From Raineya orbicola (GTDB taxonomy: Bacteria > Bacteroidota > Bacteroidia > Cytophagales > Thermonemataceae), in contig NZ_NKXO01000022.1 in assembly GCF_002843425.1 (NCBI RefSeq), positions 1 through 61,134 of the forward strand: a stretch of 61,134 nt of DNA, given 5' to 3'. Position numbers and translations under genes: made by a program. The notes beneath the pieces are model-generated. The model saw only the letters and a list, made by a program, of their open reading frames with translations. It made no database searches and was not told where the DNA came from. Below are positions 20,388-27,269 of this stretch, in pieces (position 1 is the stretch's first letter; every line of letters starts with the position of its first letter).

Positions 20388-20483
20388 AAACTTGATAATT
20401 TCAAAAAAATCTCAATTCACTATCACAAAAATACAAAAGATAAGAACAAACTACTTTGGCTTACTCAATTTTGATAAAAATTT

Positions 20484-20512
20484 AAAGACTTTCCTTATTC
20501 AGGAAAGTCTTT
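20484..20512 (-). terminator. Terminator after groEL
   Basis: AAAGACTTTCCT and AGGAAAGTCTTT arms, 5-base loop, about 30 bases past the groEL stop. On the minus strand the tail is AT-rich rather than a pure T-run. Confidence 0.75.
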
Positions 20513-20541
20513 TGTGGGATATAACTGGATTGAAGTAGGGC

Positions 20542-22191
<1,650 letters not shown>

Positions 22192-22224
22192 TTAAAAAAT
22201 GAGAAAAAATTAAAGTGTAAAAAA

Positions 22225-22509
22225 TTAGAGAATTGCGAAAATATCAGATTCACGCATAATAAGGTACTCCTTGCCATCAATAGTGATTTCGGTACCTGCA
22301 TATTTGCCATAAAGCACAGTATCACCTTCTTTTACGGTCATAGGCTCGTCTTTTTTGCCTTTGCCTACGGCAACTACTACGCCTCTTTGGGGTTTTTCTT
22401 TGGCATTGTCAGGAATAATGATACCAGAAGCAGTTTTAGTTTCAGCCTCGGCAGGTTCTACCAGAACTCTGTCGGCAAGCGGAGTAATTTTCAATTTATT
22501 TTTTCCCAT
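22225..22509 (-). CDS. groES: Co-chaperonin GroES
   Basis: A 94-residue co-chaperonin from the ATG at 22509 ([18 protein letters not shown]). The mobile loop [20 protein letters not shown] and the C-terminal [14 protein letters not shown] are typical. A frame extending 39 codons further upstream runs into the promoter region and is not real. First gene of groES-groEL, behind a probable sigma-54 promoter. Confidence 0.98.
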
Positions 22510-22564
22510 ATCAATTATGAATTTTAGGTTTAAGGAAATGCTTTTTGAAAGGTTGCAACCATAG

Positions 22565-22584
22565 CATAGCATTTTATATGCCAA
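22565..22584 (-). promoter_or_regulatory. Probable sigma-54 (-24/-12) promoter of groES-groEL
   Basis: The minus strand reads TTGGCATATAAAATGCTATG. The GG of TTGGCA and the GC of ATGCT are separated by exactly 10 bases, the defining spacing of RpoN promoters (consensus TTGGCAC-N5-TTGCW). Transcription would begin near 22558, about 49 bases before groES. No good TTTG/TAnnTTTG pair was seen for this operon. Upstream TGTCAG repeats could be the activator site. Confidence 0.6.
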
Positions 22585-22703
22585 TGTAATTTTTACGGAC
22601 AAATAGACGCAAAGTAAAAACTCCAAAATTCTACAAAATCGTTATTTTCAAAGATTTTTAGCTTATTATCCGTACAAACATATTTGAATTTGCCAAAATG
22701 ATA

Positions 22704-22741
22704 TGTCAGAAAAACTGACATTTTTTCAGTCTTTTTGTCAG
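22704..22741. promoter_or_regulatory. TGTCAG/CTGACA repeat cluster, possible activator site
   Basis: TGTCAG at 22704-22709, CTGACA at 22715-22720 and TGTCAG at 22736-22741 form two overlapping inverted repeats within 38 bases. They lie about 120-160 bases upstream of the -24 box of the groES promoter, a usual distance for a sigma-54 enhancer. They also lie about 75 bases upstream of the divergent barrel gene, so control of that gene is possible. The rest of the 305-base gap between the two genes shows no coding frame. Confidence 0.5.
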
Positions 22742-22814
22742 ATTACAAAATATTTTTTTTACAACCGAAACAAATTGCATTTTCCTAACGTAATACAAAT
22801 AAAGACTTATTCGT

Positions 22815-23684
22815 ATGCGAACACTTTTGCATATTTTTTTGGGAATTTTCTTTTGTGCCATTTCAGTAGAAAGTATTGCTCAAAGACGAACATACAAGCC
22901 CGCTAAAAAAGACTATCTCGGCAGTTTTGATGACTCTCAATGGTGGATTGGCATTCACGCAGGCGTAAATTTAGGCAAAGCCTTACCCCTAAAACGCTAC
23001 GATATTTTAGAATTTACCAACGGCAATAGTGTAAATAAAGAATATGATGGTTTTCGGAAGTTGGGAGTGCAAACTGGTGCCAGAGTAGATTTTAATTTCC
23101 TGACAAACCTCTCCGTCAGTTTCCAACCTACCTATAACAATATGAATGTAGGTTACGAGGTTGCTTATCAGTGGCAAGGGCAAGATAATAATTCTCTCAA
23201 CTTGCGTTATCATCATCGTATTCGGCTCAATTATTTAGAATTGCCCTTGATGATACGTTTTGACGTTCTTCGTCAAGCATTTAAGCCCTATGTTCAAGGT
23301 GGATTGGGCTATGGTATGCTCATCAAGGCAGATAAATACATTGAAATAGAGAGCTTTGATAGAGCTTCGGGGGCAAATAATCCTATACAAAACGAATCGC
23401 CTGTAATTGGTGCCAAAAATTTATTTATTACCTCACAATGGATTTGGTACTTAGGCGGAGGTTTAAGTACCGAACTCGGTAATGTGCGTTTAGGTGCAGA
23501 ACTCAATTACAAACAGGGTTTGAATAATGTTACTAATCGTCTCAATCGCTATTCTGACCAACGAATGATAGGTGTTTTAGATGCTCTTGATGATATGACC
23601 TTGCAAAATATACAAATAGAATTTTATTGCGTTTTCCCTATGAAATTTTTGCAAATTTCCTCTTTCAGAAGAGTAAGACCCTAA
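22815..23684 (+). CDS. Outer membrane beta-barrel protein (porin family)
   Basis: A 289-residue protein with a signal peptide ending near SIAQ. The mature part alternates hydrophobic and polar residues as in small 8-stranded barrels (IGIHAGVNLGKAL, GVQTGARVDFNFLTNLSVSFQPTY, YLELPLMIRFDV, PYVQGGLGYGML, WYLGGGLSTELGNVRLGAELNY). The YLELP...PYVQGGLG pattern is that of the Bacteroidota PorT-like/outer-membrane-barrel families. Role unknown. The next gene starts 20 bases downstream, probably in the same operon. Confidence 0.78.
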   Translation: MRTLLHIFLGIFFCAISVESIAQRRTYKPAKKDYLGSFDDSQWWIGIHAGVNLGKALPLKRYDILEFTNGNSVNKEYDGFRKLGVQTGARVDFNFLTNLSVSFQPTYNNMNVGYEVAYQWQGQDNNSLNLRYHHRIRLNYLELPLMIRFDVLRQAFKPYVQGGLGYGMLIKADKYIEIESFDRASGANNPIQNESPVIGAKNLFITSQWIWYLGGGLSTELGNVRLGAELNYKQGLNNVTNRLNRYSDQRMIGVLDALDDMTLQNIQIEFYCVFPMKFLQISSFRRVRP

Positions 23685-25913: not shown

Positions 25914-27269
25914 TTACCTTTGAGAAACACGAACCGCAGAAACAGGATTTTGAGGCTTACAACCATTGCAATTTTTAGCTTTGTATTGGGTGCTTCTTAC
26001 TGCATTTTCAGCAATATGCTCCCACGAAGGTGCTCCTGTACGCATATAGCCAATCTCTTCTTTGAGAGCCTGAATAAAACTCAGCGTAAAAAAGCCTCCA
26101 TTGATGTTGCACCACGAATATTCACCAGGAGAGCTACCAGTAATCATAATGCTTCCACGAGAATCTATAAACAGCTTTTTTAGTTTTTGAATCTCCGCCC
26201 CCTGAAAGCTGCGGCTTGCCATAAAAGTAGTAGAAGTCATTTGATTTCTGCCAATATCTGAATTGCAACAATCGCTCAAAATAATATTGAGTCTGCCTCC
26301 TTTATCAGTAATAGCCTTGGCAGCAGCCGAGAGAGGTAAGGAAGTTTTTTCGGTAAGAGGAGTGTATTCCGAATAACGCATATCTAATTGTGGATACTTA
26401 TCAGTTTGGTTAGACCAACGAAAGCCGTGTCCGCTGTAATAGAAAATTACCACATCATTATTACCAACCTGCATACTTTTAATAGTCCTTTCTACATTAT
26501 CGCGAGTAAATTTTTCTCCGTTAATAATGTATTTTTCAAAAGGCATACCCACCGCTTTGGCAATTTCTCTAAATTCTACCTCCATAGCTTTTTGGTCTAC
26601 GGCACAACTTTGCCCAATATCGCCAATATCTGTATTGATAACAAGCAGTAAGTGCATCTTAGATTTTCCGCTCCCTGTATTGTTATTATTATTGTTGCTA
26701 CTACTACCACTATTGCTATTATTATCACTGGTATTGTAGTTTATTGCCCCTGCTGATGCATCTCTCATTTTACGCAAGGCTTGATATTCGGGCTCATCAG
26801 TACGGAAAAATTGACGCAAGTAGCTATCTGTCATAGTTTTGGGGTCTATTTCTATGTAAGATTTGCATTGAATCAGATGAGAAGCATCAAAATTAGGGTC
26901 ATCAGTAACGTAGGGGAGTTGATTGGGGTTTTGGTCATTCCATACCCAAATAAAATGGTCTGGGTTGTAGGATTGCCCTTTTTCTTGATTGGTAATAAAG
27001 CGAGGATTGCTACCAACCATTACCAAATAATTATAACCATCTTCTTGTCCTGTTACAGATTGATACTTGACATCAACCACGTTGTACTTACCCTTATAGG
27101 TATATCCTATACGCATATAGGCATCTTGCTCGTTGAAATACACCAAAAAAGCCTTGTAGGTAATATCGGAAGCCTCAAAGACGATTTCATACAGCGATTG
27201 CCCTTTGGCATTAGCAAAAGCGAACAGAAAAAATAGCAGTCCAATTCGCCGAAGGAGTTGTTTTTTCAT
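25914..27269 (-). CDS. Exported caspase-like protease (peptidase family C14)
   Basis: A 451-residue protein: signal peptide (cleavage near AKGQ, residue 24), an unknown beta-rich N-terminal domain (25-165), a Ser/Asn-rich linker (about 177-203) and a caspase-like domain (204-451). The catalytic dyad is visible as His281 in FYYSGHGF and Cys335 in LSDCCNSD. The specificity is unknown; the pocket residues do not show the caspase or metacaspase type. An exported caspase could process surface or periplasmic proteins. It is the second gene of a cluster with gaps of only 6-12 bases. Confidence 0.85.
   Translation of the reverse strand: MKKQLLRRIGLLFFLFAFANAKGQSLYEIVFEASDITYKAFLVYFNEQDAYMRIGYTYKGKYNVVDVKYQSVTGQEDGYNYLVMVGSNPRFITNQEKGQSYNPDHFIWVWNDQNPNQLPYVTDDPNFDASHLIQCKSYIEIDPKTMTDSYLRQFFRTDEPEYQALRKMRDASAGAINYNTSDNNSNSGSSSNNNNNNTGSGKSKMHLLLVINTDIGDIGQSCAVDQKAMEVEFREIAKAVGMPFEKYIINGEKFTRDNVERTIKSMQVGNNDVVIFYYSGHGFRWSNQTDKYPQLDMRYSEYTPLTEKTSLPLSAAAKAITDKGGRLNIILSDCCNSDIGRNQMTSTTFMASRSFQGAEIQKLKKLFIDSRGSIMITGSSPGEYSWCNINGGFFTLSFIQALKEEIGYMRTGAPSWEHIAENAVRSTQYKAKNCNGCKPQNPVSAVRVSQR

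Follow-up and report, generated by a model that had tools for sequence, protein, structure and literature searches.

A putative sigma-54 promoter with an upstream TGTCA cluster at groES–groEL of Raineya orbicola, and a candidate receiver-less activator of chaperone genes

The chaperonin operon of Raineya orbicola raises the question of which sigma factor transcribes it and which regulator switches it on. The window (the whole stretch of DNA analysed, 61,134 nucleotides) carries groES (94 aa, Cpn10; 22225..22509, minus strand; PF00166, E 8.8e-36) and groEL (542 aa, Cpn60; 20542..22170, minus strand; PF00118, E 1.6e-78), both taken from the list of open reading frames (ORFs). A first-pass annotation had proposed that sigma-54 control replaces the sigma-32 or CIRCE/HrcA schemes at this operon. 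The HrcA/CIRCE part of this proposal, which is the part covered by the following searches, agrees with the results: HrcA was found in none of the 59 genomes compared (the same search was positive in seven of 14 control genomes), and no CIRCE element with up to three mismatches was found in the window. For P. gingivalis, the accessible part of one report describes that no CIRCE was found and that a different control of the chaperones was assumed; the regulator RprY of this bacterium binds the groES, dnaK, and clpB promoters, so that other regulators act at such genes (PMC3646045).

A groESL operon with a sigma-54 promoter has a precedent in F. psychrophilum, where, in the available portion of the study, mapped transcription starts lie behind -24/-12 elements at groES–groEL, lon, dnaK, grpE–dnaJ, htpG, clpB, and skp (PMC9723704). 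The SM4 promoters of that species, with -24/-12 elements at groES–groEL and dnaK and a regulator gene together with lptE near groES, resemble the case of R. orbicola; however, it is another bacterium of the phylum, and in the same portion of the study its chaperone promoters carry no assigned activator or enhancer (PMC9723704). Chaperone genes are also enriched among predicted sigma-54 targets of Bacteroidota, including Cytophagia, but those regulons were predicted by scoring matrices and, in the accessible text, comprise no activator or enhancer for the groES cluster; the statement made there on GroES of B. thetaiotaomicron rests on reference 80, which is a Blattabacterium paper (PMC12316311). 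In a literature search that reached mostly papers outside subscription, no publication was found on an activator or a TGTCA enhancer for chaperones. What appears to be new here, as a candidate, is one activator together with its sites, which is conserved throughout the order and also occurs in other Bacteroidota classes. In Bradyrhizobium japonicum, one groESL copy is controlled by NifA and sigma-54; this operon likewise lies behind a sigma-54 promoter, but it is one extra copy, under nitrogen-fixation control and without a chaperone regulon.

The putative sigma-54 promoter of the window, TTGGCATATAAAATGCT (22568..22584, minus strand), is recognised from its sequence and from its conservation in groES upstream regions. 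It comprises the -24 box TTGGCA (22584-22579, minus strand) and the -12 element TGC (22571-22569, minus strand) at the GG-N10-GC spacing. From the position of the -12 element, transcription is predicted to start at 22557..22558 (minus strand), 48–49 bases 5′ of the groES ATG at 22509. The RpoN-type TTGGCA/TGCT pair with GG-N10-GC spacing that the annotation had described on this strand is therefore present, and its coordinates, including the distance of about 49 bases to groES, are right to about one base. Nowhere in the window is the strict consensus YTGGCAYN5YTGCW matched; it fails at groES because an A precedes the TGC. The relaxed pattern TGGCAYN6TGC has 60 matches in the 3.07 Mb genome (25 when the pattern is reversed), and ORFs of at least 90 aa contain 50 of these 60. 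A single -24/-12 match is thus weak evidence, such matches being common inside genes, and it is the conservation in relatives that lifts the groES promoter above chance. Among the 60 matches, the groES site is the only one with at least two TGTCA/TGACA sequences within 220 bases upstream. As a finder of regulon members in this genome, the TGGCAYN6TGC scan was discarded, with its 50 of 60 matches in ORFs and several half-sites at groES only; TTGGCAN6TTG was likewise dropped as unspecific (200 matches, 30 of them examined; nine for the reversed pattern). In the alignment of three groES upstream regions of the same genus (R. orbicola, G001, and G002), TGGCA and AAAATGC are invariant, and the TAnnTTGY-like sequence TACTTTGC at 22616-22609 is absent from G001 and G002. 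Rfam gave no match at 20400-23000. Elsewhere in the window, a separate gene (25914-27269, minus strand) encodes a 451-aa protein with a caspase domain (Peptidase_C14, E 3.8e-13).

Upstream of this promoter lies a cluster of half-sites, read on the minus strand as CTGACA (22741-22736), TGTCAG (22720-22715), and CTGACA (22709-22704). They are located 120–157 bases upstream of the -24 box, where the annotation had placed three such motifs at 120–160 bases. The two inner half-sites form a perfect dyad, TGTCAG-N5-CTGACA (22704..22720), detected by dyad search and regarded, given the half-site enrichment described below, as a putative activator (enhancer) site. The outer CTGACA (22736..22741) is also found in G001, and a TGGCA at 22691..22695 (minus strand) may be a fourth half-site, since G001 reads TGTCA there. 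The dyad has a single zero-mismatch match in the window, and 17 with up to three mismatches versus 15.5 expected. The palindromic N5 spacing was rejected as the general form of the enhancer: a spacing of eight bases is the commonest at dnaK, grpE, and hsp20, the spacing among groES upstream regions is variable, and the 8-base spacing that characterises dnaK and grpE is absent from the cluster of the window. The observation of a promoter with an upstream TGTCAG cluster is confirmed, and its interpretation as sigma-54 control of groESL is supported.

Sigma-54 itself, on which this interpretation depends, is encoded by one rpoN gene in the genome (E 1.3e-57). In keeping with the enhancer-binding activator that the annotation had postulated, three genes encode a strong sigma-54 interaction domain, and six weaker matches resemble other AAA+ proteins. 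According to the domain search, the first of the three (L002, G000:C20:28304-29059) has a receiver and an AAA+ domain with no HTH match, a type which we take to work without DNA binding, and the second (L003) has a receiver, an AAA+ domain, and HTH_8. The third (L004/L120, G000:C5:42705-43985, plus strand) is a receiver-less NtrC-type protein of 427 aa with AAA+ and HTH_8 domains. It belongs to the bEBP family (PF00158, E 1.1e-67; PF02954, E 1.7e-13; no receiver), and consists of an AAA+ domain from about residue 16, a variable linker with one conserved helix, and a Fis-type HTH. All of the 21 aligned orthologs contain GAFTGA or GSFTGA, and the HTH is nearly invariant in these members of the order, with the core ISERTLYRK fully so. 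For the Dyadobacter ortholog, the AlphaFold2 model (mean pLDDT 83.9, pTM 0.62) starts straight in a confident AAA+ domain, followed by a low-confidence linker with a better-predicted helix at 288–315 and a confident C-terminal HTH at 387–426. Among solved structures, the R. orbicola protein matches the AAA+ portions of NtrC-type activators, including PspF.

The PspF protein of enterobacteria is an AAA+ activator that has no N-terminal sensor domain, carries a C-terminal Fis-type HTH, and governs a stress regulon. The receiver-less activator shares this architecture (TIGR02974, PDB 2bjw), but it scores 261.9 bits against the TIGR02974 cut-off of 443.55, so that it is PspF-like in architecture only; it is also longer (427 aa versus the 336 positions of the PspF model), and its proposed targets are cytoplasmic chaperones. 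Among the 25 NCBIfam families examined (26 matched), it is over the cut-off of none. Directly after its stop codon, a TTGGCA-N6-TTG sequence (G000:C5:43990-44004, plus strand) precedes a gene for an outer-membrane beta-barrel protein.

Orthologs of the receiver-less activator were found in 56 of the 59 genomes at E <= 1.2e-107, the next match being at 4.6e-71. They are missing from G014, G018, and G039, and a clear groES is likewise missing from G014 and G039. G018 (88% complete) carries ATGGCACAATTTATG and a TGACA before groES, yet no close ortholog was found, and it does not fit the activator reading unless the gene falls in a gap of the assembly. Of the 54 genomes that have both genes, 18 (counted by eye) have the activator 1.5–3.8 kb before groES in the same orientation; in R. 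orbicola it is on contig C5 and groES on C22, so that the two are not adjoining. Among the best 80 loci of named GTDB genomes, close relatives are found in Tenacibaculum, Phocaeicola, Pedobacter, Flavihumibacter, Dyadobacter, and others, which we take to represent five classes of Bacteroidota, and groES follows the activator in 16 of the 80. One of these loci (L153) reads miaB, activator, lptE, a gene with no Pfam match, secG, groES, and groEL; on reading, L150, L178, and L159 resemble it, with an extra gene in L150 and no miaB in L159. In F. psychrophilum, a "probable sigma-54-dependent transcriptional regulator" together with lptE (THC0290_0733-0732) is encoded at a distance of four tags from groES (0729); its promoter is of another type according to the available part of the source (PMC9723704), and from its position it is very likely the ortholog of the receiver-less activator.

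It might still be that groESL depends on sigma-54 while the TGTCA sites are bound by one or more other activators, for example the receiver-type L003, which has the domains needed; the accessible part of the F. psychrophilum study also notes that its three PF00158 proteins might be separate activators, each for its own cluster of sigma-54 promoters (PMC9723704). We consider this rather unlikely, given the near-universal presence of the receiver-less ortholog, its position beside groES in a third of the genomes with both genes, its nearly invariant HTH, and the missing HTH match in L002.

The assignment of the cluster to groES was examined in 49 upstream regions from R. orbicola and relatives of the same genus, family, and order. 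They derive from 50 of 56 clear places (G047, G051, G036, G019, G034, and G049 were left out), less L059/G016, whose start was not recognised, and include the region of the window and two copies from G025. Dinucleotide-preserving shuffles served as the background (200 for half-site counts, 100 for promoter cores and sigma-A boxes). In total, 136 TGTCA/TGACA half-sites were counted versus 31 ± 5 in shuffles; at least two are present in 38 of the 49 regions (six in shuffles), and fewer than two in the other 11. An unguided count of pentamers ranked CTGAC, TGCCA, and TGACA first. In the 16 named-genome loci where groES follows the activator, TGGCAY and at least one TGTCA/TGACA precede groES without exception, although some of the TGGCAT sequences are part of a terminator-like hairpin; TG stands at the -12 place in nine, the other seven reading otherwise, and a TGWCA pair at spacing 8 is present in six. 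The cluster of the window is also situated 74–111 bases before the ATG of a divergent outer-membrane-protein gene at 22815 (plus strand), and could be the operator of that gene rather than of groES. Nevertheless, the half-sites are retained before groES while the upstream sequences diverge widely outside the motifs, and in the four named-genome loci read the upstream gene is secG or another, which makes this explanation very improbable.

The same 49 regions bear on the promoter. The core [CT]TGGCA-N7-TG is present in 34 (shuffled mean 0.5, maximum 3) and missing in 15, and the looser TGG[CT]A-N7-TG is present in 44 (shuffled mean 1.4, maximum 5). Sigma-A boxes are at or below chance: the Bacteroidota -7 box TAnnTTTG occurs in eight regions (shuffled mean 8.1), and no -33/-7 pair was found in any of the 49 (shuffled mean 1.4), so that the annotation was fair in seeing no standard Bacteroidota promoter. 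That groESL is transcribed mainly by a housekeeping sigma factor, with an incidental -24/-12 match of the kind frequent inside genes, is hardly credible against these counts and the starts mapped at the sigma-54 motifs of groESL in F. psychrophilum, as given in the available part of that study (PMC9723704).

Other heat-shock genes were examined with a fixed test, [CT]TGG[CT]A-N7-TG with TGTCA or TGACA within 160 bases upstream. The upstream regions of groES pass in 30 of 49 cases, those of dnaK in 14 of 18 (from 19 genomes, the partial one of G018 being left out), those of grpE in eight of 17 (clear places, one weak place being left out), and those of hsp20 in seven of 27 (from 35 places); the background was two of 159 R. 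orbicola ORFs of at least 150 aa, a value biased upward since these ORFs come from 89 loci picked for -24/-12-like matches. The annotation had pointed to other heat-shock genes as places where the paired motifs should recur, and this holds for only part of them in R. orbicola: dnaK passes, with TGTCA 40, 24, and 16 bases before TTGGCATATTCATTG; grpE has TTGGCAAAGAAATTG with TGCCA/TGGCA in place of TGTCA, and fails; and both hsp20 genes fail. At dnaK and grpE, most half-site pairs have the form TGNCA-N3-TGNCA. TGWCA-N3-TGNCA pairs are found in 12 of 18 dnaK, nine of 17 grpE, and three of 27 hsp20 regions, versus 0.04 in shuffles that keep base composition only; in these counts, the TGGCA of a -24 box may serve as one member of a pair, and the dnaK regions were cut at the outermost ATG, incorrectly in a few cases. 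Recurring GACA..TGTC dyads such as GACAATTTGTC were noticed by eye in hsp20 upstream regions that fail the TGTCA test (L300, L303, and L314), and represent either a variant of the enhancer or the site of another regulator.

In eight whole genomes, the composite pattern TGTCA-N5..35-TTGGCA-N7-TG has 56 matches, versus three when reversed. The 50 loci examined cover 51 of these matches, and three of the other five were assigned by coordinate. Thirty-four of the 50 loci are inside other ORFs. The pattern marks dnaK in six of the eight genomes, grpE in four, and groES in one (two dnaK and one grpE by coordinate), and four further places, of which one is at a gene for an outer-membrane barrel, two are at other genes, and one has no gene. 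In R. orbicola it matches dnaK and one intragenic place only. The dnaK sites of R. orbicola and G003 were counted as such despite overlap with a longer ORF; in both, the overlap is due to an in-frame ATG located 87 bases upstream of the protein start MGKIIGIDLG.

Some single sites deserve mention in their own right. A gene for a DegQ/HtrA-like protease (trypsin and PDZ domains), which is possibly a further member of the regulon, is preceded by TTGGCACTAATTTTG and, 68 bases upstream, by a TGACA (L397, G000:C5:24275-24289, minus strand). A beta-barrel gene (L417, G004:C27) has TTGGCACAGCCTTTG with a TGTCA 34 bases upstream, and a gene with a Clp_N domain (L439, G003:C295) starts 128 bases after TGTCA..TTGGCAATAAATTTG, a site that lies within the upstream ORF.

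Three small genomes of the order (G029, G044, and G058; 1.1–1.2 Mb) were also examined. In each of them the receiver-less activator is the sole match at E <= 1e-60, a reading that is insecure since this cut is near the scores of receiver-type activators. TTGGCAYN6TG sites (70 of 75 examined, 58 of the 70 inside ORFs) are located just upstream of groES in all three; before dnaK in G044, with TGTCA 36 bases and TGACA 28 bases upstream of the -24 box; before lon in G044 and G058, a promoter seen in small relatives only; and before an RNase R-like gene (G044) and one other gene (G058). Four of the 12 extragenic sites have no gene just downstream. In G044, neither lon nor the RNase R-like gene has a half-site within 220 bases. 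An initial view, in which sigma-54 served groES alone in these genomes, was dropped once the dnaK and lon sites appeared.

Taken together, it is likely that groESL is transcribed from a sigma-54 promoter under a receiver-less activator acting at the TGTCA cluster, a control shared with dnaK, grpE–dnaJ, and some hsp20 and lon genes. A polymerase containing sigma-54 forms a closed complex, which a bound activator opens by looping over and spending ATP. Accordingly worded for this locus, RNA polymerase with sigma-54 (RpoN) would transcribe groES–groEL from 22584-22568 (minus strand); being unable to open the DNA alone, it would need an AAA+ activator, which would sit at the TGTCA/TGACA cluster 120–157 bases upstream, loop over, and open the promoter with ATP. 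This activator is most likely the receiver-less protein of contig C5, as deduced from conservation, and through TGNCA-N3-TGNCA sites it would also switch dnaK and grpE–dnaJ, as well as hsp20 and lon in some lineages. The outcome would be a sigma-54 heat-shock (protein quality) regulon. PspF is restrained by PspA; on an activator that likewise has no sensor domain, a partner probably exerts a similar restraint. That a chaperone provides the signal by acting on the conserved linker helix of the activator is a guess, and a doubtful one. The binding of TGTCA sites, the activation, the response to folding stress, and the restraining partner are all what we infer from the patterns described above.

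We lean, with some reserve, towards a broader view, in which a dedicated receiver-less activator with TGNCA-N3-TGNCA enhancers would, as an ancestral trait of Bacteroidota, be the master regulator of their cytoplasmic heat-shock genes (groESL, dnaK, grpE–dnaJ, lon, and others), working through sigma-54, retained in relatives of 1.1–1.2 Mb, and sensing stress without a classical sensor domain. Such wiring of groESL is unlike the textbook schemes based on sigma-32 or HrcA, and for the control of chaperones in Bacteroidota without HrcA one candidate activator that is open to testing can now be named, together with its sites. These findings also suggest why sigma-54 control might persist in genomes of 1.1–1.2 Mb.
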